A DNA stretch of 64,000 nucleotides from Paracyclopina nana (Eukaryota; Arthropoda; Copepoda; Cyclopoida; Cyclopettidae). Below, piece after piece: positions 3,001 through 39,508 of this stretch; position 1 is the first letter of the stretch, and every line of letters begins with the position of its first letter. The notes below the pieces were generated by a model. The model saw only the letters and a program-made list of their open reading frames with translations. It did no database searches and had not been told where the DNA came from. The position numbers were made by a program, and so were the translations under genes. The stretch spans positions 9,436,501 to 9,500,500 of the forward strand of contig JAGUCH010000002.1 in NCBI GenBank assembly GCA_019096065.1. The letters run 5' to 3'.

Positions 3001-6000
3001 ATTTTACCCTCGCTTGTTGCTGCTGCGCTTTATGGCATATTTAATAAGTAAGTAGTGTGCCCCCTCCGATGTTCCTTGGCCACGAGGAAAAAGCCGTAAA
3101 GGAATATTTTTTTGACATGCTTGGCTGCAGAGTCGAGGATTTATCTTATGCTCTTGCACTCCGTACCTTTTTCTTTGGCAAAGATCAAAGCCGGCGTGTT
3201 GAGCACTCGATCCATACAGAATAAACAAAACAGATGCCTTTGACAATTGAGTCTCCAATTATTATCAGCAGTCGCCGTTTTCCAAAAGAGAGAGAGCTCA
3301 GGAAAGTTACTGTAGCAGTGGGATGCCTTTTAGAAATCCAATTTAGAATGGCCTCGCTTATTGCTCCGTCAACGCTGTATGTTGTAGTACATGTCATCGG
3401 AAATGCCTTTCCAGCGAGCTAGTGCATCACAAATATTTATTGCTGAGCTTGGTTGGTGGCCCTTATAAAAGAGTCCGTAATGAGAGTCAATTCTTGCACG
3501 CGTGCGGGCTTTTGTTGGCCAGGCAAAACTCTAATATAATGGCGGGAGTAGCGAGCAGCATAGCTAAGGCTCCATTCTTCTTTTGAAATAGCCCGAAAGT
3601 GAAACAGCAAAGTTTTACTGCGTACGTGCATATACTATAGCTCGCAGTCTCATTATTTGACAGTTTACCAGAGAGGACAGAAAGATTCTACTTGGTCGTG
3701 AACGGCCTCAGAATGGCCAATTAAAGGATTGTTTAAAGGCCAACGCCTTATTTCCGAGGCAGTCGAAAAAGAAAAGCACCCCTTACTATTATACACACTG
3801 TTGATAAGATATGACTGCGCAATCAGACTAGTACTTTCTTCAATGGATGGCATGAGGTGCCAGACCAAAGTTGTGCCGGAGTTTGTTAACTTCGTTAAAC
3901 AGTCCCCATGAGGTAGGAAAAAACGGGGAGAAATGTGGCTGCAGAAAGTAAGATGAAATTATTTTTCCAGCCTCCTGCGACCAATTTAAGGCCCCATGAA
4001 ACCCATTCGAGATATTCATCATCATAGTAGTAGTAACTTTTTTGGCCTTATCAATCTTCTTAGCTGAGTCATCATCCCTTCAAAAACTCACCCTCGATCT
4101 AGTTGCGGAGTAGCAGGGGACACATCATTTTCTCCTTTTTCTTCCTCTGGCTGTTCGAGGCTTTCGCAACATTTCCACAAAATTAGCAGCTATTGAGCTT
4201 TTTGCAGAAGCAATGGCGAAAGAAGGTGACTGCAACAATATAGTATACTGTATATTATTGCTGCAGCCAGAGAGAGCAAAAGCCATCATAATTCCCAGCT
4301 GTTTTTGCGATACATCATATGAGGTCGCCCAAGGGGAAATGGCAGTTTTGATCTCATCTACAGCACATATACTTCTACTAAAGAAAATTATTGGCAATGA
4401 AGCAAAAGTCGATCGACCTGTCAAAAAAAGGAGAAAGAGGCCCAAGGCTCTTTTTTCTCGGAATACAATTTGCCCGTGATGGCTGGTGGCCTTGTTACAA
4501 GAGAACCTCGCGGAGCAAAGAAAGCCACAGGATATTAAAAAGTAATTACGGTGTGAACCGAGGGATACAAGTGTAAAATGGAACCACGTCCGCACATGAG
4601 CCGAGAACGTTTTGATTAATTTACTCCTCTTGACAAGGCATAACGCATAATCTAGCTATTTCGTTGAATGGAGAGGCCTGCCTAAAGGAAAGATAATTGA
4701 TAATGTTCCTGTCAAGTCTTCTAGGAAACTCGCAAGAAATGCCACGGCCAACAACGACGGCATCTGCCTGTGCTGAGAAATTACAAAATCATCCGCGGCG
4801 ACGACCATCTTGATATTATTTCTGGACACCCTACCGGCAGCCTCGTTTTTCAGCCTCATAGTACTATGTAAATCGTTATTAAATTAAGGGAGGAACTCTG
4901 ACACCCGTTGCGTTTGTTGGCTTTTTACGCTACTAGTTTGCATTCATGCACCATTATTATTTTCTTCTCTGTTTGGCAGTCAAGTGAAAAACTAAGACTG
5001 GCATCAGACTTGAAATACAATTTTCCTGTTTTATCCTTCTGGTTTCTTCAGAGGACGTGTTTTATGTGCTTTTCTGAATATCTGCTGCGGCGAGCAGCAG
5101 ATCATTTATTTTGAAAAAAAAGCTTTTAAAGTGTGAGCCGAAAAATGCAGCAAAGCAGGATAATCTTACCGAAGCCTTTTTTTGTCTTTCTGCTTGTGAG
5201 TTTGTGGCATTATTACGCCTTTCAAGGCAAACATACCTAATTGGCCACGACACACAGAAGCAGAAAAAATCAAACGAAGAAACGGCTGTGGTCAAATACA
5301 GCTTCTGTAAGCCTCTAACAAACCCAGAATTATCTCATCAACTGCCAGCCAGTATTTCACAGAGCAAACAACAATCGCTTATCGTAGTACGTTCTGCTAC
5401 CTTTCGATACATGGCATGACCAAGCATTTTGCTTGAGCTTTTGACCTTTAGTCAACATGCTGGCACATTCGTTACAATTAGGCGACACAAATGCCATTAC
5501 AAAAGACCCTCTTTTGTGCTTTGCTGCCTGTAAGATCGATTAAGTAGTGCATTAGAAGTTACACTCAGTCCTCAATTGTATTTATTGCCAAAAATAAATT
5601 TGGAAAATCCTTGGAACTGTAAACGTGTAGTCAACTCCTTGACACTTCAACTCAGATGCTTTCAATCACTTTTTAAGGAGTTTTTTAAAATCTCAGTTGT
5701 CTCCCTTATTTGCTTCATTGATACATTTTCAGAAGCACACGCAGAATCAACTGCTTTGGGAGCAAATTGAGCAACAAACAGCTTTTTGTAAACTGTCAAG
5801 TTTCCGCACGTAAGATTGTTCAAGCTTGTTTGCTCAGCTCTCAATACATGGCTTTTCTCTCGATTCTCATCTATAAAGAGAAAAAGGGATCCCCCATCTA
5901 CGCTTATTCAAGAACTTGAACACGATTTCAGACGCCTCATTCTCCCCTCTCCGAGCTCTGTGACATTTGAAAGGGCATTTTTTCTTCGAATTATGACTGC

Positions 6001-6866
6001 TGCAGTAGAATGGAATAATACTGCGCCGACGGCTGATTTAAGATTTTCATAAGTTAGATTGGAACAAGTTGAAAGACAAGAGCAGCATATCAACAAGAGA
6101 AACCGACGACGTGACATTTTGTCTGCTAAAAAATATCCGATGGCAAAACTTGGTACAGAGCGAAAAAGCAATATTGTGAGTCTATTGACTTTCAGAGGAA
6201 ACATAAAAAAGTGTCAGCATCCTTGGGCACCCAAAGGGCATAATGCTGGCTGGTCTATTTCACTTAGCCGGCTTTTCCGGCTCCCGATCATTCACTTCGT
6301 CGCTTATATCAACAGCGAGCTTAACACGCCGTTGTGGTCACCTTCGGGCACGTTGAAGAGTCTGCGAAAGCTTTCCAAGTAATCTCCACCTTCTAGAATG
6401 CCAAGCATGTCTGGCATACAACAAAAAAATAAAAACCACGAGAAAATGGACTAATTGGACAGGCGAGCTCGTTTTGGAAGAAAAGCGTGATAAAAGGATA
6501 AATAATTCACGAACGAGCAATGCCTATCCTACATAGTGGATGAGGACAAAAACCAGCTGGGTAAGCAAGTAAACATGCTAAGCTAGTAGGCCTGATTCTT
6601 CCTAATGAATAGAGCACTTAATCCGGAAGCTTTCTTTTTCTCCTGCCAAGCATAACCTTCTTATTACTTCTATTATCCGCGTACGTAGTAAGCGTAAATT
6701 GGATGCAACATATGTAAGCCATGGAGTAGCAGTTGTGTGCATCCGGATTTGAGGCAAAATATGAGCACCTTATCTCATATCTTGTTTGATTTATCTCTGT
6801 TTGCTTTCAAGTCACAGCAGCTCAAGCTAACTGCACAGAAGAAGAGTGTCTACTATTTTTCGCATT
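1..6866. other. No supported gene, about 6.9 kb
   Basis: Both strands were read. Open frames are short (the longest is 156 codons on the minus strand near 4.1-4.6 kb) and show no recognisable motif, no signal-peptide plus cysteine pattern and no convincing chain of splice-compatible exons. It may be intergenic or intron of a gene outside the window. Confidence 0.6.
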
Positions 6867-8548
6867 ATGTCGGATCTTATAGCCAGCGTGGCAGAAGAAG
6901 AAGATGAAGCTCATGCTAATAGAGTGGATGCTAAGAGCATCCAGGAAATGAAGTTCGAAGTGCTAATGCAACGAGTAGGCACGTCGTGTCTGGTGACTTC
7001 TGTGATCCTTTTCGTTGGGCACATCGTATCAGCAGCTGCTACGCATAATCCAGATGGTGGCTCTTCAGTCACTGGCTTCGCCCTTAGTCTCCTCCTATTT
7101 TTTGTATGGTTTGCCATCAATAGCGTCCACGGAGGACAACAAAGCAATGCAGCAGCCAAAATCTCAGATGTAAAAAGTTAAGGCACGGCGTAAAATTTTA
7201 TAAAGCCCAAACATTTTCCATTCCGCAGGAGGAGCAAACTTTTTCGCCGTCACCGCTGGACTTTCAATGGCGACTTCGAGGACTCGATGAGATTAGGTTC
7301 ATGATTCCATCCAAATGGTTGTCTGCGTTGGCCGCTACCTACTTCGTTTCCAGCATTTTGATGGCAAGTTGCGAAGCGTTTCTCATGTCCATCGGAATAG
7401 TTTCGTACAACCAGGACATTGGGCCTATCCATGGAGTTCGCATTGGATTGGCATTGGTGTTCATGGCCACTGCAGGATTTTGCATGGTATTGATGCGACA
7501 GCAACCTCCGAAAATGTCAACCATATTGGCCACGCTCGTTTTGGCCTTGACATCCCTCATAGGCTCATCCTTCCTTGCCTCGTTTTGGTTCATGCGATCT
7601 GATTTGAGACTGATTACGCGCATGGAAATGGGATATGAGGTGGGTAGTCTACAAGCCAGAATTTTGGAGCAGATGAAGGCTACCCACCATGGACTCTTGT
7701 ATTTTCCCTTTTTTCCCTGGACACCCCTAGTAGTCACCATGAATTGCTTCCCCATTCCTCTCGTGGCCACTTCACTTGCCACCATAATTATATGCGTGCA
7801 CTTGCTTTTTTCCATAAAACTATCTCAGGAGCAGACCAATGAAACGAGCAAGCCAAATGCGAAAACTTTTGCCGTTTGCGGGGCAGCTCTGATTGTGAGT
7901 GGATTCGCCATCAATGTCATGATTCTGATCATCCCCAATTTGACAGATTTCCACTTTACCTTGACCTTGGATTCCATTTACAAACCAATGGTGTTTTCCA
8001 CGCTATCCTTGATCGGTGGTGGACTGCTGTCTTTGTCTGCGGCAAGCAACTCAGCCTCAATGGGCAGGAAATTTTCATTGCTGATCGTATCAGTCCTGAC
8101 TTTCGCGGCAACCATTCATCTAGTATTACAGACCAGCAATTTAGTGCAATGGCACGATAGCATGGGCAGCTATACCAATTTATACCATGATCGCTACATC
8201 GGCCCGTGCATCTCAAGAAACGAGAGCTCTTTGTGTCACACTTGCTGCCATAAGAAATGTATCTCCATTGAGAAGCAGTGCAACGGTGTGTTGGATTTCT
8301 TTGAGATACCGTTCAACTCATCGAATTGCTTGGAAGGGCATTTTATCGAGGTCAGCCTCCTCTATGATGAGATCACTTGTGAGCAACGTTGGTTTGGACT
8401 TTATGTGACACTTTTTACTATGGCAGCCATTGGTATGATTGTCTGCCTCACTATCTGGATTAAAACCTGGTCAACATTGCCAACAGCCTACGCTTTCGTC
8501 ACTCAGATGATACGGCAACATTTCTGCAACCAAATTCCGCTAGAATAA
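6867..8548 (+). CDS. Polytopic membrane protein, unrecognised, two exons
   Basis: Exon 1 is 6867-7169 and exon 2 is 7229-8548. They are joined in phase 0 by a 59-bp GT-AG intron (donor after ISD, acceptor ttccgcag), giving 540 aa. The ATG at 6867 (MSDLIASV) is the first in frame. The protein has an acidic N-terminus and about ten hydrophobic segments: two in exon 1, including CLVTSVILFVGHIVSAA, and eight in exon 2. Before the last helix lies an extracellular-type loop with eight cysteines (around SLCHTCCHKKCISIEKQC) and NxS/T sites (NES, NSS). The polyadenylation signal AATAAA at 8544-8549 overlaps the stop codon. I do not recognise the family: the spacing recalls repeated four-helix modules but no signature motif is visible. 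It is probably a plasma-membrane or vesicle protein. The exon model is well supported by phase and by length divisible by three. Confidence 0.75.
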
Positions 8549-11500
8549 AATCTTTGCTAAGCGCAACATTTTTCCGCGAGAGTCACGCAACCTTTACGAG
8601 CTAGCACTCAAGCCATATAGGGGATTCTGCTCACGATTCGATCGAGGCCGCGAGATTTCTCCACAAATCCACCTTTACAGAAAGAAATGCTGATGATGGT
8701 GACCAACCAATTTCACGGAGAAGTTCATGCTATACAGCTGAAACAATCATAAAGGTCGAACCGCCAATGTAAAGTCAATATCGAAAGTTATTGGAAACGG
8801 GAGCCATGACAGAGGAATTATAAGGGAAGCTAAGAAGAAGGGGTGATTCTTTATCCTCTCCACGAAATTACCCAATGGAGAATTCTACAATTGAAGTAGT
8901 GTCAGAAAACACTTCTTCTTTCGAAAGGCTTCGTGAGGCTTTTTCCCTAATTTTGCTCGATTGCTTTGCCCTCCTCAAAGCTGGAGGAGCGCGCGTTGGC
9001 CCAATCCGATCAGTTCCAATCAGGGGGAATTTGGGAAGGGCGGATCAAAATTCAGAAAAAGGCCTGAGAGCTTGACGATAAAGACGTCCAAAGTTATTAT
9101 TCCCACGAAATTTGGCTCGACACCAAAATGATGTGATGGTGTGCTGACTTAGCACCCGAGACAATTACGACTAATCCCAAGAATATGAGAATGAGTAGCC
9201 GATCATAAACACACCCCTAGCTTCCTCCCCCCGCGTGACACACATATAGTGAAATATGGCCTCTCCCAAAACGGTCGTTTTGAAATGTGCAGCAATATTT
9301 TCAAAGTGGGAGGAGAGAGAGAATAATGACTGGACGCGCAATATCAGAGTGAAGGTAGCGACCAAAGGAGAATGGCCATTTTGGGGATGGTCATCTCTCA
9401 CTCGCTTGCAAAGAAACAGGGGTTGTGGGAACAAGGTGAGTGTACGTTAAGTTAAGCGTGGCTTTTTTATGGCCTTTTTTAGCTGGCTGGCTGGCTGCTG
9501 CTAGAGCTGTTGGAAAGCTTTCTTTAATGCGAAGACAATTTGGTGTATTAGCTTAGCAGGTCCTTCTTCCCAGCTAGCACTTTTTTCTGGTGCTTTTTAA
9601 ACAGGTTCAGGTGCTTCTGCTGCAGGAAATCAAGAAAAACAAACATGGACTGACACATGCTATCAGGATCGCACCTAATCACGAAACAGTCTCGCATACG
9701 TACTACATACACGTAGAGTGGAGTAGTATTTGCTTTTCTTGATTTTGTTTTTACTGGCAGCTAGAAGAAGTAGTTGCTAGCAGTCGGAAAGTAGGCCCCG
9801 AAATAACCTGCTTTAGCTTCTTCTCACACGCTTCCAAGAGGAGCTGTAAAAAAACCCTGATCGTTTTCCCTTCCTTGCCATCTAGCCCGTCTCGGAAAAT
9901 AGTGGATATATACCATACCAGATAGAGATGCTGAGTCAATAAAATAGAGAAGCAATCATCATATTCTTAGCAGCAATAATGATTTGTCAAAACCGACCCA
10001 TTTTATTGACACTGCGAATCGCACCGCCGCCAGGGAAAATGGCTCCATTCAAAGAAGAATAGTCCTGAACAAATAGCAGAGAATCGGGCTTTCTTACATC
10101 CCACCAACTTTGCTACTGCTCCAAGACCCTCAAAGCTGAAGCCCATAAATGTCGCCAAGATGACGTATTACAGTTGTGGCAGCATCAGTCAATGGCACCC
10201 ACCTCCTGTCTCTTTGATGTGAAACAACTGAAACTTACAGAGAAGATTGTAATCCGAGTTTTTTCTTCTTCTTCCTACTCCTCTTCCCCGCTGCAACAAC
10301 AATGGCAGCAGCAACAATAGTTATTTACTACACACCCCTTACTTGGTGGTAGCTGTTATTGCTGCATTCCACGAAGTCACCCCTATATCCCATCTTTGAG
10401 GTGGGAACATTATCGTGATACGGTGCGACCCGCTCTAAGGCCCCCTTGAGACATCAGCATTGAGATGGTCAAAGTTTTGTTTGGAAAGTGACAAAAGGGA
10501 GAGAGTCTCGCGCGTTGGCTGCTTAAACACTGAAGCGCAACACACTCCATGTCAAAGAACAATCGCAAAGTGGGTCATAAGCGATAAGGGGACAAATGCA
10601 AAAAAGCTGGGGAGGGCTAGTAACAGATGACATTTTTTTGGACATGGATAGCCGCTTGACAGATTGGCTGGGTGTCCCTTTTTTCCGTGCCTAAGTACAT
10701 CATGGGACTCGGGGGAGACTTGAGAGAAGACGAGGAAACGCATTATGAGATAAGTTTTACCCTTATTTTCCCCTTAAGAAGCAGCGGCCAGGCCATGGTA
10801 CTTGATTTGGGTGCAGAAGCACTGGAATTTCATTAGTTTCCTTCAAAAAGGGTTGTTGCTTTCTCAGCAGCCGCCGCGAAAGTTTGCGCTGTCGCCCTAC
10901 GATGGCCGGGCTAGAAAATGCCAACTTTTGGCATGCATTTGCAGCAGTCAGCCACCGACTTAATTCTTCATCCTCATCTTCGGTTTCAGCCTCTTTGATT
11001 GTGTTCACGAGGACGAAACAGCTTTGGTAGTTGGGGCGGGCTGGTCTAGTTGCAAAATAGGGTTGGTTTCCCATTAATTATTCTCCCCATAGCAGCAGCT
11101 TCTTCGAGGTATTTAACTACATATGGTCTCCCTCCCGTTCTCTCTCAACATGCAAAATGTTTTCAATGGAGCATATTTTTCACAAGTTTGCACCAGCTTA
11201 AGTAGTGGTGGTACAATATGTCCCTGCCGCTGCTACCCTTAGCGCCACTTCCAACTGTGTGACACTTGGGGGGCTCAAAGGAAAAAGCAATTGAATTTGT
11301 AGAATGAGGGAAACTGCCGGCTTTCTTCATGCTGCGAGAAAATGGCGAGAAAAGTACGGCGACTGTGGCGTTGAAAACAGGGCCCAGGGTGCTGGAGGAA
11401 GTCAGTTGACCTCTCCCAGCTTTAGCTCAAAATGATGACAAGGAGAGCTAGCTGCTTAGCTCAAGAAAGAGGGAGACGACGACGACGACGTAGAAGAAGT

Positions 11501-26118: not shown

Positions 26119-26122
26119 TTAA
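26119..26122. other. Target-site duplication TTAA, left
   Basis: TTAA immediately precedes the left terminus CAGCTCCTGACTGTAAGCC. It matches TTAA at 39505-39508 after the right terminus. TTAA duplications are typical of the piggyBac and Kolobok superfamilies. Confidence 0.85.
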
Positions 26123-28352
26123 CAGCTCCTGACTGTAAGCCACAGGCAATCCTGATACAAGGTTTCGGATTCGAAAATCAGTTTTTTGGCCCAAATCCCT
26201 TGTAATGGTGTGAAAAGTACAAAAATTAAGTTTCATGACCACTGGACCACTCTAGGGTGGTCAAGTGGTGCAGTAAGCAAAAGGCTGTTTAGATTAAGGC
26301 AAAAATGAATGGGGGCCTAGCTGGAGGTGTGGGTATGGCCAGAAATCAACTATACCCTAATTATCTAGGCCCTGGGGGGGTCTCTAGGTGTCAGGGAAAA
26401 AAAGTTGAAAAACGTAAACAAACTAGTTGGAAATTGGCCAAAATTCACTTTTTCGGACCCTACTTTGAGGGCATTTTCCTCCCATGTCAGTGGATGGATT
26501 TTTGATTTTTCAACTCTGGATGAAAGTCAAAGATTGGAACTGTCATTACAAAAAAGAAAATTCATTATATGTCTGCAGATGGAGCTCCTGGAGCGATTCA
26601 AAAATGCACATTTTTTACAAAAATGCCTTTACAGTAAAACAGATAAAACCGACAAGTGAAAGTGAAGTCATGGACAAACTTTTTTTTGTCATCACAAACA
26701 TGTCAGTGCACACCCAGAGGCTTCTCCCAAACAAAAAAATTCAGGATACATAGGCCCTGCCCCTGGCCAGGAGCCTGGGCGGTGCCTATTATGCTCTGCT
26801 GCAGCAGCAACATAGGCCAACAGGGAGCCCCTGGCTCCCATGTCAGTGGATGAAAGTGTCCTTTTTCAGCCTCCTGAGGTCTGTGCTGGCCTGGAGGCTT
26901 GGGCCAAGCAAAAAAATTCAGGGTACATTGGCCCTGGCCTGGAGCCTGGGCGGTCCCATTTATTCTCTGCTGTAGCAGCTACATAGGCCAACAGAGAGCC
27001 CCTGGCTCCCATGTCAGTGGATGAAAGTGTCCTTTTTCAGCCTCCTGAGGTCTGTGCTGGCCTGGAGGCTTGGGCCAAGCAAAAAAATTCAGGGTACATT
27101 GGCCCTGGCCAGGAGCCTGGGCGGTCCCATTTATTCTCTGCTGTAGCAGCTAAATAGGCCAACAGGGAGCCCCTGGCTTCCATGTCAGTGGATGAAAGTG
27201 TCCTTTTTCAGCCTCCTGAGGTCTGTGCTGGCCTGGAGGCTTGGGCCAAGCAAAAAAATTCAGGGTACATTGGCCCTGGCCTGGAGCCTGGGCGGTACCT
27301 GTTATGCTCTGCTGTAGCAGCTACACAGGCCAACAGGGAGCCCCTGGCTCCCATGTCAGTGGATGAAAGTGTCCTTTTTCAGCCTCCTGAGGTCTGTGCT
27401 GACCTTGAGGCTTGGGCCAAGCAAAAAAATTCAGGGTACATTGGCCCTGGCCTGGAGCCTGGGCGGTACCTGTTATGCTCTGCTGCAGCAGCTACATAGG
27501 CCAACAGGGAGCCCCTGGCTCCCATGTCAGTGGATGAAAGTGTTCTTTTTCAGCCTCCTGAGGTCTGTGCTGGCCTGGAGGCTTGGGCCGAGCAAAAAAA
27601 TTCAGGGTACATTGGCCCTGGCCTGGAGCCTGGGCGGTACCTGTTATGCTCTGCTGCAGCAGCTACATAGGCCAACAGGGAGCCCCTGGCTCCCATGTCA
27701 GTGGATGAAAGTGTCCTTTTTCAGCCTCCTGAGGTCTGTGCTGACCTAGAGGCTTATGCCAAGCAAAAAAATTCAGGGTACATTGGCCCTGGCCAGGAGC
27801 CTGGGCGGTCCCATTTATTCTCTGCTGTAGCAGCTAAATAGGCCAACAGGGAGCCCCTGGCTTCCATGTCAGTGGATGAAAGTGTCCTTTTTCAGCCTCC
27901 TGAGGTCTGTGCTGGCCTGGAGGCTTGGGCCAAGCAAAAAAATTCAGGGTACATTGGCCCTGGCCTGGAGCCTGGGCGGTCCCATTTATTCTCTGCTGTA
28001 GCAGCTACATAGGCCAACAGGGAGCCCCTGGCTTCCATGTCAGTGGATGAAAGTGTCCTTTTTCAGCCTCCTGAGGTCTGTGCTGGCCTGGAGGCTTGGG
28101 CCAAGCAAAAAAATTCAGGGTACATTGGCCCTGGCCTGGAGCCTGGGCGGTCCCATTTATTCTCTGCTGTAGCAGCTACATAGGCCAACAGGGAGCCCCT
28201 GGCTCCCATGTCAGTGGATGAAAGTGTCCTTTTTCAGCCTCCTGAGGTCTGTGCTGGCCTGGAGGCTTGGGCCAAGCAAAAAAATTCAGGGTACATTGGC
28301 CCTGGCCTGGAGCCTGGGCGGTACCTGTTATGCTCTGCTGCAGCAGCTACAT
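26123..28352. repeat. Left inverted terminal arm
   Basis: A 719-bp unique terminal block followed by a diverged 140-bp repeat copy (starting 26702) and nine 171-bp units. The whole arm is repeated inverted at 36216-39504. The inner edge is abrupt: the last unit breaks off in 'acataggggcttggcccaag'. Confidence 0.88.
26842..28352 (+). repeat. 171-bp tandem array, left arm, nine units
   Basis: Units start with GTCAGTGGATGAAAGTGT at 26842, 27013, 27184, 27355, 27526, 27697, 27868, 28039 and 28210, an exact 171-bp period. The last unit is partial. Variants (ATTTATTCTC versus GTTATGCTC) alternate between units, indicating higher-order mixing. 171 is a multiple of three, so two frames stay open across units for long distances. 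I regard these frames as incidental. Confidence 0.95.
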
Positions 28353-28463
28353 AGGGGCTTGGCCCAAGCAAAAAATTCAGGGTATATTTTCCCCAGTTAT
28401 GATCCACTGTTCTAGTTAACTTAGTCTTCAAGATAAGCATAAACTTCTTTATTTTTCTCATTT

Positions 28464-31400
28464 TTACTCTAGAACTAAACAAGCATCAGAGCAATTTTCC
28501 TCAACATACTTAGTGAGTGCTGTTGAAATGTTTCCATGTGTCATTTTTTTGGGGAAAGGAATTGAAAAAGCCTCCATTACTCTGATGAGTATTGATTTCT
28601 CAATCCCAAAAAATTGGGAGACTCTTTTTTTCTTTTGGTTCTTGAAGTCTTTAGCTAAAGCACATAGCTCTATTCCACAGGCCTGCAAGCATGAAAAATC
28701 ATGTCAGTCTATTGGCTTAAACATAGCTTTTTTATATACTTGAATTGGATGCTGCTTGTCCTGCTCATCATTTGAGTTGACATTGGCAAGAAGGATTCTC
28801 CTGATCTTTGACTCTTGTAGTACTTCCATGTCACTTTGAACCTCCTCAATGGCTTGAGTTGTCTCTTCAGCCTCATGAGATCCTTTTTTCAACCTTAGCA
28901 GATACTTAGCAAACAGGCCCTTGATCTAATAATGAAGTATTACATTACTGCTCAAATTAACCTTCAATAGTACCTGTGATTCTGAGAGCCACTCTTCAAT
29001 TGTGAACAATGGAGACCCATCAGGATCTTTGGTGGTCCTCATTAGCCTGGCAACATCAGCTGCTTTGCTTTTCTGACCACTTGCTTGTCCTTGATTGAAG
29101 GCATCAAGCACAAATGATTCTTGCTTTGCATTGAAAACTGAATGAGATTTCTTTTTGCTGAGAGCAAAGCCAATTTCAAAACTAGTCTTGACAGGAATGA
29201 GTGCCTTAGGAAGATCACTTGGTAACTCAATCCTCTTCAGCTGCTCCAGATTTGTTTGAAAGTGCCTTCTTTGCCATTGTGATGACCTGTCAAGCTCACC
29301 ATACAGGCCATATTTTGAAAAATAAGCCTTTCTTAGCCTGTTGGTGGCATTTTGGCTTGGTAAATGCACCTGGCAAATGCCATTTGCAACATGCTCTTCA
29401 AATCTTTTGAAAGTCAGAAATTCTGCTGAGCAATGACTGTTTGGGCATTGAAAATGAACTGGTTGGACAATCATTGAGGTTGCTTCGCCAATGTCCTCAG
29501 CTGAATCCTCATATCCCTCAACTTCTTCAATTGCTCCTGATCTTTTGACCAAATGCTTCAAGACTTCTTTTGGAGGATGACACAGGTTTGGATCTAATGA
29601 AGGGACCACTTGAACTCTCGAGCCATCAGGCATAATAATTGAGCAGTCATACACTGCTGTTTGCTCCACTTTATTCACTTTGATCAGTTGTCCTTCCCCA
29701 ACTCCACTTTGCTTTTTGACTTTGATTCCATCATGAAGAAAGGTAAACTCATTCAGAGACATGATGCTCTTAATTTGCCTCTTCTGAGGCAGCTTTTTGA
29801 TGTCAACAACTTTTCCAGCTAGTACCAAAACATTGGCAACTGGATTAGACCTTAAGGAAATTAGTGAATAAACATTAGAATAAATAAACATAAGATGTGG
29901 CAGATTTCTTACATCGTGAGAGCAACAGCAAACTCCATTGGGGTGACAGCTTTGTGTCCTTGTGAAATGTATGTCCAAGCTTTCCTTTTCATAATTGCAG
30001 CAATCTAAAGTCTAAATTGGCTCATCATATTTATAATGTAATTTACTTTTTCTTACTGAATCTGCCTTTGATTTGCCTGCTCCAGGGGTACTGAAAACAT
30101 ACTTCACAATTTTCATGTTTCCAAAGGAATTCCTCATGAAGTAAAGAGGCAAAAGAAAGTTTTCAGAATGATATGTCCTAAAAGTAAACAGAATATTGGC
30201 TTCGATGGAATGAGTATAAGTACTGCTTACCCAGCATTGTCACTGCGAATGTAACACTTCTTGATTTGAGGATTGGCCTTGGAAAAAAGGCTCAATGAAG
30301 TCTTCAATAATGCAACATTGACACAGCTTTCCTGGTTTTCCGAGTTTGTCATAATGCTCACATGAGAGCTGATTTTTTTGGACCATGAACCATCTTTGCT
30401 CTTGATGAAATGCTCAAAAACGGTTATGTGCCATGGGATGCCAGCCTTGCCAAACCAATCACGTTGGGACTCCCTGAATTGAGCTGGAATCCATTTCATT
30501 GCCCAATCCACAACACAAATGGCAATTGTGTCATCCTTCATGCCACCAATGAGATCCCACTCCCTACTCTGTGCAAAGTCTTGCATGAGATGTTTCTTGT
30601 AATTGACAATATGCTCATGGCACAATCTAGTGTCAAATTCAAGTTCATTAAGTTCGTCTGGAGAAAGAAGGAAATTTTTGCCTCCCATCTGGATTAGTCC
30701 TTGAATGCCATCAATGACATCACCAAGACTGGAACAGTAATGGCACTCCTCAGTGTGGTCAAACTCACACTCACTTGCAAATTGCTTGTTGAGTCCATCA
30801 CTTAGACCATGAGTGACACAATGAGCTGCAACACTGCTTGTCATTGACAGGCTGTAGGGGAAGTAGTTTCTAACATAAGCCAACAAAGTTGAGAGAGCTT
30901 CAATTATTGGCTTAATGAACTTTTCTTGTATTCCATGGTTTTGAAGTTGGATGCAAATTCCCTTGAGCTTTTCAAAAGCACCCATTCCATCTTCCTGAAA
31001 ATGCATAATATAATTTTTCTCACATGTTTTAGTAAAAATGCTCTTTTCTGTGTGACTCCCTGATATAGGCAGAATGTCAAACCAAGAGTGAGAACATTTT
31101 CTATAACATTTAGTACTAACTTAACTTTTAGAGACATTCTGTTCAATATATATTTTTATTAGTTACCTGGGCACTGTTGATGCCTCTCATGATTTTTGGA
31201 CTAGCTGCTGGTAGCTCCCTTAGAAATCTGAATATGGTTCTCTCACATGGGACTGGCACAGCCTGCTGGCTAAGAAAGCTTTGGCATAGCCTGACAAGCT
31301 CTGCTTTTGTCTTAGTTCTGATGACTTTTGGCAAGGTTTTCTGCACCCCTGATTCATCATGAACAGATATGGTTCCATAAGCCACATTCTATTGGTGGTA

Positions 31401-33051
31401 TTACTCATCAATTGACCAACTTGAATTATGTATTTGAAATGTACTTGTTGAAAGGCTCAATAGATTTGCACAATTTTATTATTGCAAATGCTGGGTAGCA
31501 GCAGTTTTGATGAGCAATTGATGAGTAATAAGCTCCTGGGTAATTGCAGGAGAAGTGATAAAGTCAAAAAGAAGTGCTACAACTTCTGAGCTGAGCTTCA
31601 TGCGCTGCTTTGAAGGTGCTGAGACCTCAACAAAACCTCGATTGTTGCGGTAGTAATGGTGCTTGGCTTTGTTGTACAAGTGCCTGCTCAGAGGAGGGTC
31701 CCATTTTGGCCCATGAAGGAGAATGTCATGGAACTCCTCTAAGTCATCTTCATCCTCAGTAATGTCTCCCACTTCCATGGCTTGATCTCCATCTTCTCCA
31801 ATGTCCACTTTCTTGTTGAAAATGGCCAATTTTGAATAACTGTATCGTGGTGGGAGAATTGATAGAAGTTGGATTTTCTCTCTGAATGAGGTAGAGTCAT
31901 TGTAGGCCAAGATTATTTCACTCAGCAGTGTGTCAACATTTTTTGGGCTTGAAAGATACTTTTCCACCAGGTCTGAAGATTTGAGGGCCTCCCAAATCAT
32001 GGAATCATCATCAGGATTAGCTGAAACAGTGTGGATGGCAGCAACAACTGCAGAAGCTAACACCCTTTTCACTTCTCTTTGGGTGGAGGAGGCTGCATCC
32101 ACAAATATCTTATTGAGTCTGAATCGGCATTTGGTGCTGAAATGGTTTTCCTCTAGTAGCTTGTTCAATGTTTTGACTGGATCTTCTGGAGGATCTTCAA
32201 ACTCAACAATGCAGTGTCCACTCTCATCTAGATCCATGTGATCATTGAATGATGGTGCAGATGGAAGAGACCATGTACTGCTTGGATGATTTGAAGGAAG
32301 TGAACTAGTACTACTTGGTTGAAGAGATACTAATGTGCTGGTGCTGCTTCCTTGGCCAGAAGCTTCCATTGCCTTCAAGACTGCTCTTCTCATGTGGATA
32401 TAATCTGAGTTGCAAATCAGTCCTCCAACTGGTAGACTGACACTCAAAAAGTTAAGGGCATTTTTTGACATCTTGGTTGATATAGGCTTCATTTGATGGG
32501 AATAGTCAAGGTATCTTTTTCCTTTGTGAGCTGGCCAAAAGCAAACATTCAGGCTGATATACTTTCTGAAGAAGCCTTTGCCCAGATTATAATGATGAGT
32601 CTCACAGATGTCTCCTCTGTTGATCTGGTCTTGATCCACTGCTGAGCACCTGTCATGGAGCAATTTTGCATCTTCTTCAGAAAAGCTGGAAACTGGAATT
32701 CTCTCTCCAAAGCAAGGTGCTTCAAACGGGGTGCCAATGACTTGTCTCCCCACACTGCAAGCCTGTGTTTACAGATAAAATATGAGGCATAAAAGATATT
32801 ATTTCTCTCAAAAAAATGCTTTACCGAAATGTAGGACCCTTCAATTTTCTTGAACATTTTGCTCCATAGCTGGCTACAATCTTGACTGAGGATCATCAGC
32901 TGAACTGAATGGAAGTGAGTCACATGGCTGCATGGAGTGAATCATAAAACAAAGCATTCTAGGCTGCTTGGCAGTTTGAAGGATCAGGGCAGAAACAGTT
33001 CCCATGGGATGACCCATTTTTGACGATGAATTTCTTGCATTTATTACACAT
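28464..33051 (-). CDS. RNase H-fold (DDE/D-type) transposase, multi-exon, interrupted
   Basis: Minus-strand exons with matching phases: 32762-31536, 31388-31167, 30994-30231, 30177-30057, 30004-29913, 29850-28974, 28925-28740, 28682-28464. An exon ending at 32825 lies upstream. The start is uncertain: an ATG at 33051 opens MCNKCKKF, but its junction is unresolved. The total is about 1,250 aa. Motifs in order: a Cys/His-rich N-terminus, VVDWAMKW (probable first catalytic Asp), IRSDNAG (second), GKSKAD (probable third), a C2H2-like finger CPNSHCSAEFLTF...H...C, and the tail block LFTIEEWLSESQ. From memory, uncharacterised proteins with SDNAGxYH and GKxxxD are common in sponge and cnidarian genomes. 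Between 31536 and 31388 there is no GT donor; a 128-bp TA-flanked insert lies there instead, so this copy may be non-functional. AATAAA (minus) lies at 28447-28452. Confidence 0.8.
31401..31528. mobile_element. 128-bp TA-flanked mini-element inside the transposase gene
   Basis: Inverted ends TTACTCATCAATTG and CAATTGATGAGTAA (14 bp, perfect) flanked by TA at 31399-31400 and 31529-31530, the duplication expected of Tc1/mariner-type MITEs. It splits a conserved part of the transposase between LLFDFITSPAITQ and VAYGTISV. Stop codons occur inside it. Without it, the two coding blocks would be separated by a short link that is one base out of frame. Confidence 0.65.
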
Positions 33052-33658
33052 TTATAAAGGATTTTTTTGTTTGCACTGATGCATTTCTTTTTTACCATTT
33101 CAAGACTTGACATATTATTGTGGAGAGCATGAACCACCACGTTTTTTGCCTTTTTGTGCCCTTCTTTTTGGTTTTGTAAAAAATCAAAAATTGCATTTTT
33201 TCAAGTCTTCTGAGTATGAACCACATGCTTTTAGGATACAATTCAGCTGTGAAAAGTGTTGGATTGAATTTTTTTAGATGCATTGCATGCTTCAGGCCTG
33301 CCCATCTTTTTTATTATGGGACAAAAAGCAAAAATGGATTTATTCCTAAGTCTTGGGCTGAGCATGAACAACATGCTTATAGGATATAGTTCAGCTGTGA
33401 AAAAGGCATTGAAACTTTTTGCATGCTTCAGGCCTGCCTTTCTTTTTGGGTTTGTGAAAAAAAGCAAAAATGGATTTTTTTGCTTGAGCACAACATGCTC
33501 ATTTTTTATAGCTCAGCACTACAAAGTCATTTGGGTGGACTTGGTAATGAAGAATTTATTAAATGTTCCATCATTTTGTATCAAAGATTTCCGCACAAGA
33601 GTCAAATTTCGTTGAGTGCACAGATTTGGATCAGTACAAAGCTATCTGCCATTGCAAA
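33052..33658. promoter_or_regulatory. Intergenic region between divergent transposon genes, with 134-bp repeats
   Basis: It lies between the starts of the transposase (leftward) and the glycoprotein (rightward), so it should contain both promoters. From about 33150 to 33530 it holds three diverged copies of a unit of about 134 bp, recognisable by GCATGCTTCAGGCCTGCC (33286 and 33420), GAGCATGAACAACATGCTTA and TTCAGCTGTGAAAA. Repeated promoter-proximal units could bind the transposase or a host factor; that role is inference. Confidence 0.5.
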
Positions 33659-36073
33659 ATGGACGTAAGGAAGCTTTTAGAGATTCTTATAGTTATTTTT
33701 CATTGTGAATCAGTGATAGCTACCTCAAAAAAGCCTAAGGTTTTCAATATTCTGAGCCAAAATGTTGAGGCCTACGACTGCCAAAACCCTGACTCAAAGG
33801 TGAGCTTTTTTTAAATTAGTTTTTGCCATCTGAAATATTTATGATATTACTATTTGCTGCTCAGCTGTGGACATTGGATGTGACAAAAGTTGACAACTGC
33901 ATGAAGCCAAATGAAATGGACCAGCCTACGACCTTGACAGTGCAGATAATCAGCCAAGTGAATGCATTGACCCAAACTTTTCAAAGCTGCCATGTCTCCA
34001 AGTATAGGTGAACACATCTATTTTCTTAGAAACAATTAATAGTCAATGAAAAGGCAGATCACAAGCCAAACATCCTCAAAAACATCAATTTTAATCTGAA
34101 AATCAAATCTCTTGAATTTACAGGGTTGCCTATCATTGTGGTATGCACAGCCATACCAGTGGGCTTGAAATCTTGGATTGGGGCCCTGAAGAAGTGACAG
34201 TGGATATGTGTAAGGAGATGACAAAAAAACGAATTTTCAAGCCTTCTGCTGGAGACTCCCAAATCTATGATCTGAAGGACTCAGTGAACAGGTTCCAAGT
34301 GTTCAGAAGAGGCTGGTTGGATAATGGCAAATGCCATGAGCCAGGATCTTGGATTCAAAATGGAAAAGTCTACACTGGATTCATCAGTAAGTTTTATGAA
34401 CAAACTGTGATGTGAAATGCCTAATTATATTGTATAATAGTTGCTGACTACTACACCATAAAGCTAGAGGAATTCAGTGGAACTCTTGTGAAAGGGAGGT
34501 ACAAGCTGCCAAACTCAAAGATCACGGTTTCATCAAGGGGCTTTGATGAGGATCTTGGAACATACTTCAGCGACTCAGAGAAGGTTAAAAATGATATGAT
34601 GATATTTTTTTCAAATATATGACAGCTTTATCTTTTAGAAATGCTTGGATGACTATGAAGAGCTTTATTATGGTGTCTCGGTTGGGCCAAAGGAACCACA
34701 ATTTGACTCTGTTATTGTTACAGCTAACAATGACACTCAGAAATATGGGGCTACTAAGCTGCAGAAGCTCACAGCCATTTGTGGAGAATTTTCTGTGTTT
34801 GAAACACCTTACTCTGGCATCTATTACAGATTTGTGGACTCATATTCAGAGAGGTACATACTATATAAAACAATAAGTTTCAGGTCAATAATTTGTTCAT
34901 TTTTAGGCTTGATATCAATCCAATATCCCCCTTGAATGTCCGCTTGAATTCAGCCATTGGTATGCTAGCCTCCTTTGTCCATGAGGATGTCATGCAGAAA
35001 TTGAAGCTAGCTTATGAGGATACTCTGCAACGAAGTTGTGAGCAAACTCGGTCATGGGCTTTGGTAAGCAAGAAAGGCTAGAATTTTCTTTTCAAAGAAG
35101 TCCTTCACTAACTATTTTTTAGAATGCACTTGCATTGATCAACAATGAACCTTCCAATGCTTACCTTGTCTTTGGACAAGGATTTTTGGCCAAGCCAAAG
35201 GGAGCTGTGATCGAAGTTGCACAATGCTCACTTGCTGAGGAAGTAAAAATGAGAAAGACAACAGCTTGCTATGAGGATCTACCCATCTGGCACCAAGGAG
35301 CCCAAAAGTTCAGAGATCCCTTGACATTCATAATTCTTGATGTGTCTCCTCTTTGTGACTGCAAATTGGACTACAGAGTTCACCATATTGGCAACTTCTA
35401 TGTGGCACAAAAGCCAGAACTCACATTTGAAAATGCCACCATCAAGCAGATGAGTCCATATGACTATCACAGCAATGGAAAATCTGTGATCAGGCATGCA
35501 TTTGTGACACTTGGCAGTTTGGCTGGATCAACCCTTGACAATGCTTTTGTTGCTCTCATGTTTGCTCATAGCAAGAGGACTGTCATGAGGCGCTACAATG
35601 GAGAATTGGTGGTTGGAATGGGCTACTCCAAGGACAAGAATATGGTGGAAGCAAGCATGGGGATGTTTGACAAACTCAATTCTGCATTCCAAACCATGAT
35701 TGATGCCTTCTATAGGTATTCAGGAGTTGTCTCTTTGAGCATCTTCTTAGTTGGAGTTATGATTGTGCTATTCATCTGGATCTTGGCAGTCCTTCGATCA
35801 ATTTGCAAACATGGAGTTAGATCTGGAGCAACAGCAACAGTGATTCTGTCAATCCTATTTTTACTCTGGGACATCCTCATGGTGGTTGCCAGGTACACAG
35901 GATTGATCAACAAGGAACCCAAATCAAGACAAAAGTGTTGCCATGACATGGAAAAAGGTTTATGTATGACCACAAAGAAAAAGGATCAATCCAGAAGCAA
36001 GAAGGATCAATCCGAAAGCAAAGAAGATCTGAACACCGATGAATTGTGGGTTGAAATGGAGTCCCATTTGTGA
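33659..36073 (+). CDS. Virus-type envelope glycoprotein (mononegavirus/chuvirus-like), seven exons
   Basis: Exons: 33659-33799, 33865-34007, 34124-34386, 34441-34583, 34639-34853, 34907-35063 and 35123-36073. All junctions are GT-AG with matching phases; the total of 2,013 nt is divisible by three and gives 670 aa. Residues 1-20 form a signal peptide. The ectodomain is cysteine-rich with an N-terminal AYDCQNP. Hydrophobic helices lie near residues 551-577 (probable membrane anchor) and 589-611, followed by a basic Ser/Lys tail. Size, the opening YDC motif, the ADYYTIKLEEFSG strand with following paired cysteines, and the single C-terminal anchor resemble glycoproteins of chuvirus-type negative-strand RNA viruses, which are predicted class III fusogens. 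No frameshift or internal stop is seen. Five of the six introns are 53-65 bp and one is 116 bp, like host introns. AATAAA lies at 36099-36104. The assignment rests on pattern recognition; the exact viral family is uncertain. Confidence 0.75.
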
Positions 36074-36215
36074 TCAAAAGGTCTAATGAATCCTTGAGAA
36101 TAAATTTGAAAAACAGGCTATTGATCTGAGAGTCTGAAAAAACTAATAAGAATGAAAATTACCAAAATGTATAACTGAAACTGCCCAGACCAATAAACTC
36201 TGAATTTTTTGGACA

Positions 36216-39200
36216 CTTTCATGGGAGCCAGGGTCTCCCTGTTGGCCTGTGTAGCTGCTGCAGCAGAGCATAACAGGTACCGCCCAGGCTCCAGGCCAGG
36301 GCCAATGTACCCTGAATTTTTTTGCTTGGCCCAAGCCTCTAGGTCAGCACAGACCTCAGGAGGCTGAAAAAGGACACTTTCATCCACTGACATGGGAGCC
36401 AGGGGCTCCCTGTTGGCCTATGTAGCTGCTGCAGCAGAGCATAACAGGTACCGCCCAGGCTCAGGGCCAGGGCCAATGTACCCTGAATTTTTTTGCTTGG
36501 CCCAAGCCTCCAGGCCAGCACAGACCTCAGGAGGCTGAAAAAGAACACTTTCATCCACTGACATGGGAGCCAGGGGCTCCCTGTTGGCCTATGTAGCTGC
36601 TGCAGCAGAGCATAACAGGTACCGCCCAGGCTCCAGGCCAGGGCCAATGTACCCTGAATTTTTTTGCTTGGCCCAAGCCTCTAGGTCAGCACAGACCTCA
36701 GGAGGCTGAAAAAGGACACTTTCATCCACTGACATGGGAGCCAGGGGCTCCCTGTTGGCCTATGTAGCTGCTGCAGCAGAGCATAACAGGTACCGCCCAG
36801 GCTCCAGGCCAGGGCCAATGTACCCTGAATTTTTTTGCTTGGCCCAAGCCTCTAGGTCAGCACAGACCTCAGGAGGCTGAAAAAGGACACTTTCATCCAC
36901 TGACATGGGAGCCAGGGGCTCCCTGTTGGCCTATGTAGCTGCTGCAGCAGAGCATAACAGGTACCGCCCAGGCTCCAGGCCAGGGCCAATGTACCCTGAA
37001 TTTTTTTGCTTGGCCCAAGCCTCCAGGCCAGCACAGACCTCAGGAGGCTGAAAAAGAACACTTTCATCCACTGACATGGGAGCCAGGGGCTCCCTGTTGG
37101 CCTATGTAGCTGCTGCAGCAGAGCATAACAGGTACCGCCCAGGCTCCAGGCCAGGGCCAATGTACCCTGAATTTTTTTGCTTGGCCCAAGCCTCTAGGTC
37201 AGCACAGACCTCAGGAGGCTGAAAAAGGACACTTTCATCCACTGACATGGGAGCCAGGGGCTCCCTGTTGGCCTATGTAGCTGCTGCAGCAGAGCATAAC
37301 AGGTACCGCCCAGGCTCCAGGCCAGGGCCAATGTACCCTGAATTTTTTTGCTTGGCCCAAGCCTCCAGGCCAGCACAGACCTCAGGAGGCTGAAAAAGAA
37401 CACTTTCATCCACTGACATGGGAGCCAGGGGCTCCCTGTTGGCCTATGTAGCTGCTGCAGCAGAGCATAACAGGTACCGCCCAGGCTCCAGGCCAGGGCC
37501 AATGTACCCTGAATTTTTTTGCTTGGCCCAAGCCTCTAGGTCAGCACAGACCTCAGGAGGCTGAAAAAGAACACTTTCATCCACTGACATGGGAGCCAGG
37601 GGCTCCCTGTTGGCCTATGTAGCTGCTACAGCAGAGCATAACAGGTACCGCCCAGGCTCCAGGCCAGGGCCAATGTACCCTGAATTTTTTTGCTTGGCCC
37701 AAGCCTCTAGGTCAGCACAGACCTCAGGAGGCTGAAAAAGGACACTTTCATCCACTGACATGGGAGCCAGGGGCTCCCTGTTGGCCTATGTAGCTGCTGC
37801 AGCAGAGCATAACAGGTACCGCCCAGGCTCAGGGCCAGGGCCAATGTACCCTGAATTTTTTTGCTTGGCCCAAGCCTCCAGGCCAGCACAGACCTCAGGA
37901 GGCTGAAAAAGGACACTTTCATCCACTGACATGGGAGCCAGGGGCTCCCTGTTGGCCTATGTAGCTGCTGCAGCAGAGCATAACAGGTACCGCCCAGGCT
38001 CCAGGCCAGGGCCAATGTACCCTGAATTTTTTTGCTTGGCCCAAGCCTCAAGGTCAGCACAGACCTCAGGAGGCTGAAAAAGGACACTTTCATCCACTGA
38101 CATGGGAGCCAGGGGCTCCCTGTTGGCCTATGTAGCTGCTGCAGCAGAGCATAACAGGTACCGCCCAGGCTCCAGGCCAGGGCCAATGTACCCTGAATTT
38201 TTTTGCTTGGCCCAAGCCTCAAGGTCAGCACAGACCTCAGGAGGCTGAAAAAGGACACTTTCATCCACTGACATGGGAGCCAGGGGCTCCCTGTTGGCCT
38301 GTGTAGCTGCTACAGCAGAGCATAACAGGTACCGCCCAGGCTCCAGGCCAGGGCCAATGTACCCTGAATTTTTTTGCTTGGCCCAAGCCTCCAGGCCAGC
38401 ACAGACCTCAGGAGGCTGAAAAAGGACACTTTCATCCACTGACATGGAAGCCAGGGGCTCCCTGTTGGCCTATTTAGCTGCTACAGCAGAGAATAAATGG
38501 GACCGCCCAGGCTCCTGGCCAGGGCCAATGTACCCTGAATTTTTTTGCTTGGCCCAAGCCTCCAGGCCAGCACAGACCTCAGGAGGCTGAAAAAGGACAC
38601 TTTCATCCACTGACATGGGAGCCAGGGGCTCTCTGTTGGCCTATGTAGCTGCTACAGCAGAGAATAAATGGGACCGCCCAGGCTCCAGGCCAGGGCCAAT
38701 GTACCCTGAATTTTTTTGCTTGGCCCAAGCCTCCAGGCCAGCACAGACCTCAGGAGGCTGAAAAAGGACACTTTCATCCACTGACATGGGAGCCAGGGGC
38801 TCCCTGTTGGCCTATGTTGCTGCTGCAGCAGAGCATAATAGGCACCGCCCAGGCTCCTGGCCAGGGGCAGGGCCTATGTATCCTGAATTTTTTTGTTTGG
38901 GAGAAGCCTCTGGGTGTGCACTGACATGTTTGTGATGACAAAAAAAAGTTTGTCCATGACTTCACTTTCACTTGTCGGTTTTATCTGTTTTACTGTAAAG
39001 GCATTTTTGTAAAAAATGTGCATTTTTGAATCGCTCCAGGAGCTCCATCTGCAGACATATAATGAATTTTCTTTTTTGTAATGACAGTTCCAATCTTTGA
39101 CTTTCATCCAGAGTTGAAAAATCAAAAATCCATCCACTGACATGGGAGGAAAATGCCCTCAAAGTAGGGTCCGAAAAAGTGAATTTTGGCCAATTTCCAA

Positions 39201-39504
39201 CTAGTTTGTTTACGTTTTTCAACTTTTTTTCCCTGACACCTAGAGACCCCCCCAGGGCCTAGATAATTAGGGTATAGTTGATTTCTGGCCATACCCACAC
39301 CTCCAGCTAGGCCCCCATTCATTTTTGCCTTAATCTAAACAGCCTTTTGCTTACTGCACCACTTGACCACCCTAGAGTGGTCCAGTGGTCATGAAACTTA
39401 ATTTTTGTACTTTTCACACCATTACAAGGGATTTGGGCCAAAAAACTGATTTTCGAATCCGAAACCTTGTATCAGGATTGCCTGTGGCTTACAGTCAGGA
39501 GCTG
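36216..39504. repeat. Right inverted terminal arm
   Basis: Inverted counterpart of the left arm, about 1 kb longer because its repeat array has six more units. Its outer 721 bp match the left terminal block without any visible difference in the translated comparisons. It ends at 39504 followed by TTAA. Confidence 0.88.
36219..38783 (-). repeat. 171-bp tandem array, right arm, fifteen units
   Basis: Unit borders (inverted orientation) fall every 171 bp from 36389 to 38783, 14 full units, with a slightly degraded unit at the inner edge (36219-36388). The 140-bp diverged copy at 38783-38923 mirrors the one in the left arm. Unit variants occur in the same order next to the outer edge of both arms, so the arrays expanded or contracted after the arms were established. 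Confidence 0.95.
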
Positions 39505-39508
39505 TTAA
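39505..39508. other. Target-site duplication TTAA, right
   Basis: Directly follows the right terminus (GGAGCTG|TTAA) and matches the left copy at 26119-26122. Confidence 0.85.

Follow-up and report, generated by a model that had tools for sequence, protein, structure and literature searches.

A two-gene, TTAA-bounded DNA transposon in a copepod genome with a probable captured chuvirus-type fusion glycoprotein

The 64-kb stretch of DNA analysed here (the window; G000:C2:9436501-9500500) comes from the 92-Mb genome of the copepod Paracyclopina nana, represented by ten contigs (C1, C2 and C3 below are contigs). It contains an element at window positions 26123-39504, flanked by TTAA on each side. 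Coordinates without a contig name are positions in the window. Between long inverted arms, the element encloses a core of ~7.9 kb with two divergent multi-exon genes. The gene on the minus strand is transposase-like, and the gene on the plus strand encodes a glycoprotein apparently of the chuvirus type.

The element and its two genes

A single bounded element with inverted ends and TTAA on both sides had been proposed in a preliminary description of the locus, and both the sequence and an arm alignment confirm it. The left end consists of TTAA followed by CAGCTCCTGACTG from position 26123, and the reverse complement of this motif closes the element at 39504, followed again by TTAA. The inverted arms were 2238 nt long and 99% complementary in a repeat analysis of the window. 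Mismatches between the arms were absent from the outer part (0/638) and amounted to 33/2233 overall. Therefore, either the window insertion is recent or conversion takes place between the arms. Both arms contain arrays of a 171-bp unit, with 9.3 copies on the left and 15.5 on the right. As 171 bp equal 57 codons, these arrays (26761-28355 and 36220-38866) keep reading frames open and give rise to spurious long open reading frames (ORFs; 27363-27749 and 37707-38264). The boundary features are as follows.

26119..26122, no strand: left TTAA target-site copy (sequence)
26123..28355, plus: left inverted arm with 171-bp array at 26761-28355 (repeat analysis, arm alignment)
37272..39504, minus: right inverted arm; the 171-bp array spans 36220-38866 (repeat analysis, arm alignment)
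39505..39508, no strand: right TTAA target-site copy (sequence)

The glycoprotein gene spans 33659-36073 on the plus strand in seven predicted exons. The six putative introns, placed by eye, are 53-116 bp long and all follow the GT..AG rule. The exons are listed with the evidence for each; family B is a related family of copies described below.

33659..33799, plus: exon 1 (predicted), candidate signal peptide, no family B match found (intron placement, hydrophobicity)
33865..34007, plus: exon 2 (predicted; intron placement, family B comparison)
34124..34386, plus: exon 3 (predicted), N-terminal part of PF24664 (Pfam, intron placement, family B comparison)
34441..34583, plus: exon 4 (predicted; intron placement, family B comparison)
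34639..34853, plus: exon 5 (predicted; intron placement, family B comparison)
34907..35063, plus: exon 6 (predicted; intron placement, family B comparison)
35123..36073, plus: exon 7 (predicted), C-terminal part of PF24664, transmembrane stretch, second hydrophobic stretch and charged tail (Pfam, hydrophobicity)

A likeness to the spikes of negative-strand RNA viruses had been noted at the outset and is upheld by Pfam. The last exon matches PF24664, the Monjiviricetes fusion glycoprotein of chuvirus type, with 44.7 bits (E 6.1e-12, profile positions 360-635) at a curated cut-off of 27 bits. Exon 3 scores 26 bits (E 2.9e-6, positions 80-169), 1 bit under the cut-off, so that the profile matches two of the four window glycoprotein pieces scanned. 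In family B, the last exon scores 52.7 bits (above the cut-off) and exon 3 scores 19.9 bits (below). The assignment to chuvirus-type glycoproteins by a score above the curated cut-off thus applies to the last exon in both the window and family B. The predicted protein has a hydrophobic start in exon 1, as well as a strong transmembrane stretch and a second hydrophobic stretch near the C-terminus. As regards the class III fusion fold of such glycoproteins, a single-sequence AlphaFold run on the last exon produced a low-confidence model (pLDDT 42.5).

The transposase-like gene consists of open stretches from 28467 to 32768 on the minus strand.

28467..28703, minus: last coding stretch, conserved in family B (ORF, family B comparison)
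28707..28925, minus: coding stretch conserved in family B (ORF, family B comparison)
28929..30011, minus: open stretch with C2HC-type zinc-finger-like motif (ORF, family B comparison)
30015..30239, minus: most conserved block (76% identity, 46 amino acids) and third candidate acidic residue (family B comparison)
30230..31120, minus: exon with first and second candidate catalytic aspartates (VDWAMKW, RSDNAG; ORF, family B comparison)
31146..31388, minus: open stretch conserved in family B (ORF, family B comparison)
31482..32768, minus: long N-terminal open stretch (ORF, family B comparison)

The first part of 28929..30011 (about 29852-30011) comprises a short exon in another frame and an intron, and the 5' part of 30230..31120 is probably an intron. 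Three acidic positions, found within DWAMK, SDNAG and GKSKAD, are common to the window copy and family B, at spacings of about 88 and 41 residues by hand count. We infer that these residues might form a DDD triad. They are followed by a C2HC-like motif. The gene is labelled a transposase because of its place in the element, the conserved D..D..D pattern and its conservation. A Pfam scan of eight open minus-strand pieces (28707-28925 not among them) gave nothing for six and chance-level matches for two (E 0.085 and 0.17).

The intergenic region between the two genes contains imperfect repeats at 33157-33517 with a spacing of about 122-148 bp, possibly a promoter region shared by the divergent genes. 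Genes for a capsid, a polymerase or a reverse transcriptase were not seen in the element, where the remaining core ORFs of at least 40 amino acids reach at most 111 amino acids and were not scanned one by one. Among the neighbouring reading frames outside the element, five were scanned and four proved to match known families (Exo84-type, PRMT, RUN plus Rubicon homology, and Spartan). Genome-wide, a TTAGG repeat pattern occurs 5073 and 4205 times and a TTAGGC pattern not at all, as would be expected of an arthropod.

Copies in the genome and conservation of the gene pair

The ends of the window element define a mobile family, here termed family A. A 13-base end motif occurs genome-wide 29+27 times by strand versus 0+1 times for a reversed control. 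These occurrences form 26 facing pairs, including the window copy, and four single ends. The 25 other pairs are non-autonomous copies of 448-5516 bp, and every one is flanked by TTAA on both sides. A chance origin of the window ends is excluded because of the excess over the control and the TTAA flanks of all 25 pairs. Two of the single ends adjoin TTAA (L040, L041), and the two without it (L038, L039) were counted as chance. Inverted ends and a fixed target-site duplication, the hallmarks of terminal-inverted-repeat (class II) DNA transposons, are thus present in the window copy and in 25/25 pairs. The shortest TTAA-flanked form among the 25 is the 448-bp copy L023 (G000:C3:6710401-6711400). 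One piece of the core recurs among these copies, and blastn of all 25 found no core sequence beyond the piece starting at 36011.

36011..36210, plus: core piece kept in 13/25 non-autonomous copies (last 63 bp of the glycoprotein frame and 3' flank)

Empty TTAA sites, called for in the preliminary description, exist for one non-autonomous copy. The L021 insertion sits in a repeat, of which L042 (two copies), L004 and L008 contain uninterrupted versions across the junction that represent paralogous empty sites. The site is a single TTAA in L004 and L008, and both L042 copies now show one-base variants of it.

The same gene pair in the same divergent order is found at C1:7399769-7412643 and C2:16928654-16941579, two 12.9-kb copies that belong to one family, B. 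Amino-acid identity between the window and the C1 copy is 46-51% in long exons. Family B arms are 1.6 kb long with ends CAGCCAGTATTG, and differ from those of family A. The main aligned pieces of the C1 and C2 copies show 97.2-100% identity, and these alignments end at the element ends; therefore, the two represent separate insertions. TTAA flanks the C2 copy on both sides and the C1 copy on the right. The notion of one mobile unit with two divergent genes is hence corroborated by whole-unit copies at separate sites.

Both genes are present, in the same divergent order, in all three full-length copies (window, C1 and C2), in answer to the earlier question of whether other copies carry both. 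Exon searches of the genome, with the best candidates scored, found no complete element lacking the glycoprotein. Copies with the transposase alone had been named as evidence that would speak against a single unit. The two candidates are truncated pieces: a third family B stretch at C2:73513-76414 is nearly identical and cut off inside the transposase-like gene, and C3:6772886-6773600 holds a C-terminal transposase-like piece only. Likewise, the glycoprotein has no insertion signs of its own among the 20 largest direct families and 25 longest inverted pairs of repeats. A decayed third lineage (family C) at C1:15495524-15497880 retains pieces of both genes in divergent order. Its transposase-like piece is a weak match (E 1.7e-4, 33% over 60 amino acids) with stops, and its glycoprotein is represented by pieces of six open stretches, one with a stop.

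The exons of the window copy are open in both genes. In the C1 family B copy, stops in the transposase-like gene were considered as damage and rejected as such. The stop in the core exon precedes a splice-acceptor-like site, and those in the next stretch lie outside the conserved frame. Between the C2 and C1 copies, there are 74 mismatches and 114 insertion/deletion places, most of which inside exons are not multiples of three. In the C2 copy (G000:C2:16932001-16940935), the excess of insertions and deletions over mismatches may mean a poorly polished assembly, and the many TGA codons may result from a shifted frame.

A codon comparison between the window and C1 family B covered 12 exon pieces, glycoprotein exon 1 and 28707-28925 not being among them. 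Amino-acid identity by piece ranges from 38 to 76% across both genes and from 38 to 62% in glycoprotein exons. Nucleotide identity is 62-80% at codon positions 1 and 2 versus 28-56% at position 3, a pattern seen in 12/12 pieces. Nonsynonymous divergence (dN) is 0.19-0.58, and synonymous divergence (dS) is 1.9-4.0 in four pieces and not computable in 8/12. The codon-position pattern indicates that both genes diverged under protein-level constraint. Among the glycoprotein introns, compared by eye, four of five testable ones are present at the matching place in families A and B, and one is missing in B. A single capture of the glycoprotein before the split of the two families appears most likely because these introns are common to A and B in a gene of RNA-virus origin.

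Relation to known mobile elements

The preliminary description had called the minus-strand gene a cut-and-paste-type transposase, which holds in part. Such an activity is suggested by the inverted ends, the TTAA duplication and the non-autonomous copies, whereas the gene has no Pfam match and the ends break the rules of piggyBac and Kolobok. Both superfamilies share the TTAA target. The ends CAGCTCC/CAGCCAG break the CCYT rule of piggyBac (PMC10175614), and no piggyBac Pfam match was obtained. Kolobok and KolobokP elements further have extra genes in some lineages and a DDD/E transposase (PMC9587614), to which the candidate DDD triad of the element would correspond. However, Kolobok ends are 5'-RR..YY-3' (PMC9587614), whereas the element has 5'-CA..TG-3', and the extra genes named in the accessible part of that source are nucleases, a helicase and the KolX protein, with no glycoprotein.

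The closest known counterparts are Teratorn, Mavericks with a fusogen and retrotransposons with a chuvirus-type glycoprotein. Teratorn of medaka is a piggyBac transposon fused with an alloherpesvirus and, as a TTAA-target DNA transposon with inverted ends and viral genes including an envelope glycoprotein, is similar in outline (PMC10175614). Yet Teratorn measures 180 kb and comprises a whole herpesvirus genome, a piggyBac transposase and CCYT ends of 12-19 bp (PMC10175614). The element described here has 13 kb, two genes, CAG ends, 2.2-kb arms and a negative-strand RNA virus-type glycoprotein. Sola3 transposons resemble the element in their TTAA target sites. Nematode Mavericks (or Polintons) are DNA mobile elements with a putative fusogen, there tied to between-species transfer (PMC10680173). 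Mavericks encode an integrase, a DNA polymerase and capsid proteins (PMC10680173), none of which was seen here, and assignment to this group would not fit the two-gene core, whose other ORFs, not scanned one by one, have at most 111 amino acids.

Captures of chuvirus-type glycoproteins are known from class I elements. Anakin, a Pao-type long terminal repeat (LTR) retrotransposon of mosquitoes, carries one (PMC10084718), but is RNA-based and encodes reverse transcriptase and integrase, whereas the element here is of class II with inverted repeats. The accessible part of the same source reports no clear capture of such a glycoprotein by a Gypsy element, and mentions from Bemisia tabaci a complete element of no assigned class that carries a chuvirus-type glycoprotein (PMC10084718). 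The Bemisia element may be related to the one described here. Elsewhere in the copepod genome, L011 (G000:C2:12430001-12440000) contains at 3086-9960 Ty3-like frames for reverse transcriptase, RNase H and integrase, with two PF24664 frames of a chuvirus-type glycoprotein behind them. Apparently, a class I element of this genome has captured an envelope gene, too. The L011 glycoprotein is 21% identical to that of the element in the matched part. No simple inverted-repeat transposon with a viral glycoprotein was found in the open-access literature, a search without preprints and most subscription papers, and an earlier description of such an element is possible.

The glycoprotein as a probable standard gene of the transposon

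We suggest, with a probability of roughly two in three, that the locus holds a two-gene TTAA-bounded DNA transposon in which a captured chuvirus-type fusion glycoprotein has long been carried as a standard gene. The glycoprotein looks like a working part of the element rather than a passenger because both genes were kept together across distant families. That the gene was kept for so long under constraint speaks for an advantage to the element.

Several observations weigh against this interpretation. The evidence as a whole comes from sequence. The transposase-like gene matches no Pfam family, and a single-sequence AlphaFold run on its core exon ended in a failed fold (pLDDT 33.6). Two further window glycoprotein exon pieces had no match in the Pfam scan, and the glycoprotein exon of the third lineage has a poorer or no match to PF24664. 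The window copy is the sole full-length family A member found by exon searches, and an empty site for it was looked for and not found. The left flank of the C1 family B copy is ATAA, not TTAA. Frame shifts affect both genes of the C2 family B copy, which may reflect unpolished long-read sequence or, equally well, decay. A protein database search with one exon per gene found no relatives, although its limit on candidate length could have hidden full-length ones. The viral contigs searched contained none either, and the element has been seen in one species only. A PDB sequence search returned nothing significant.

How the glycoprotein might serve the element is more tentative. The minus-strand gene, as a DDD transposase, would cut at the arms and insert at TTAA, duplicating it, and the 171-bp arrays could offer extra binding sites. 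The glycoprotein would be made in the secretory pathway and sit on cell membranes or vesicles. Membrane fusion might then pass the element DNA or a transposase complex between cells, for example from soma to germ line, and rarely between hosts by the same route. Such fusion-aided passage would explain why selection kept the glycoprotein. As no capsid or polymerase gene was seen, the DNA would have to travel in a vesicle, through a fused cell or with a helper virus particle. A capsid-free, envelope-bearing DNA transposon, with transposase and fusogen alone moving DNA between cells or hosts, is a plausible proposal that we would rate somewhat short of even odds.

The main alternative accepts the capture and assigns the glycoprotein a use unrelated to transfer, such as receptor interference against related viruses that would protect both host and element. 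Endogenous glycoproteins of the chuvirus type are frequent in arthropods (PMC10084718), host co-option has been named as a possibility (PMC12282059), and the codon constraint on the glycoprotein would fit equally. The joint presence of both genes across diverged families speaks against this explanation, as does the retention of a transmembrane stretch and a candidate signal peptide in the window copy. Neither point is decisive, and we consider such a non-transfer role unlikely, while still the strongest competitor.

If related transposons had captured different chuvirus-type glycoproteins on two separate occasions, this would account for the low identity between the family A and B glycoproteins and for the one A intron absent from B. 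However, the identical position, the divergent orientation and the matching introns speak against repeated capture. Negative-strand RNA virus genes are not known to carry intron sets of this kind. Two captures are highly improbable. The idea that the core is a virus-derived insertion or an assembly chimera between transposon arms, unrelated to mobility, draws on the single full-length family A copy and is barely credible, given that two family B copies carry the same pair as one unit, which dispels the earlier concern about a chimera, and that 13/25 non-autonomous copies of family A retain the last part of the glycoprotein frame (possibly transposon DNA later made coding).

Known envelope captures by LTR elements, Mavericks and transposon-herpesvirus fusions bring their own replication or particle genes. 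What would be new in a transposon with a captured glycoprotein as a standard gene is a minimal element keeping a fusion glycoprotein beside a transposase-like gene through deep divergence. This hints that a transposon may profit from a fusogen on its own. How DNA transposons cross cells and species becomes directly testable in such a system. If true, the capsid-free scenario would represent a minimal route from a transposon to an infectious agent.
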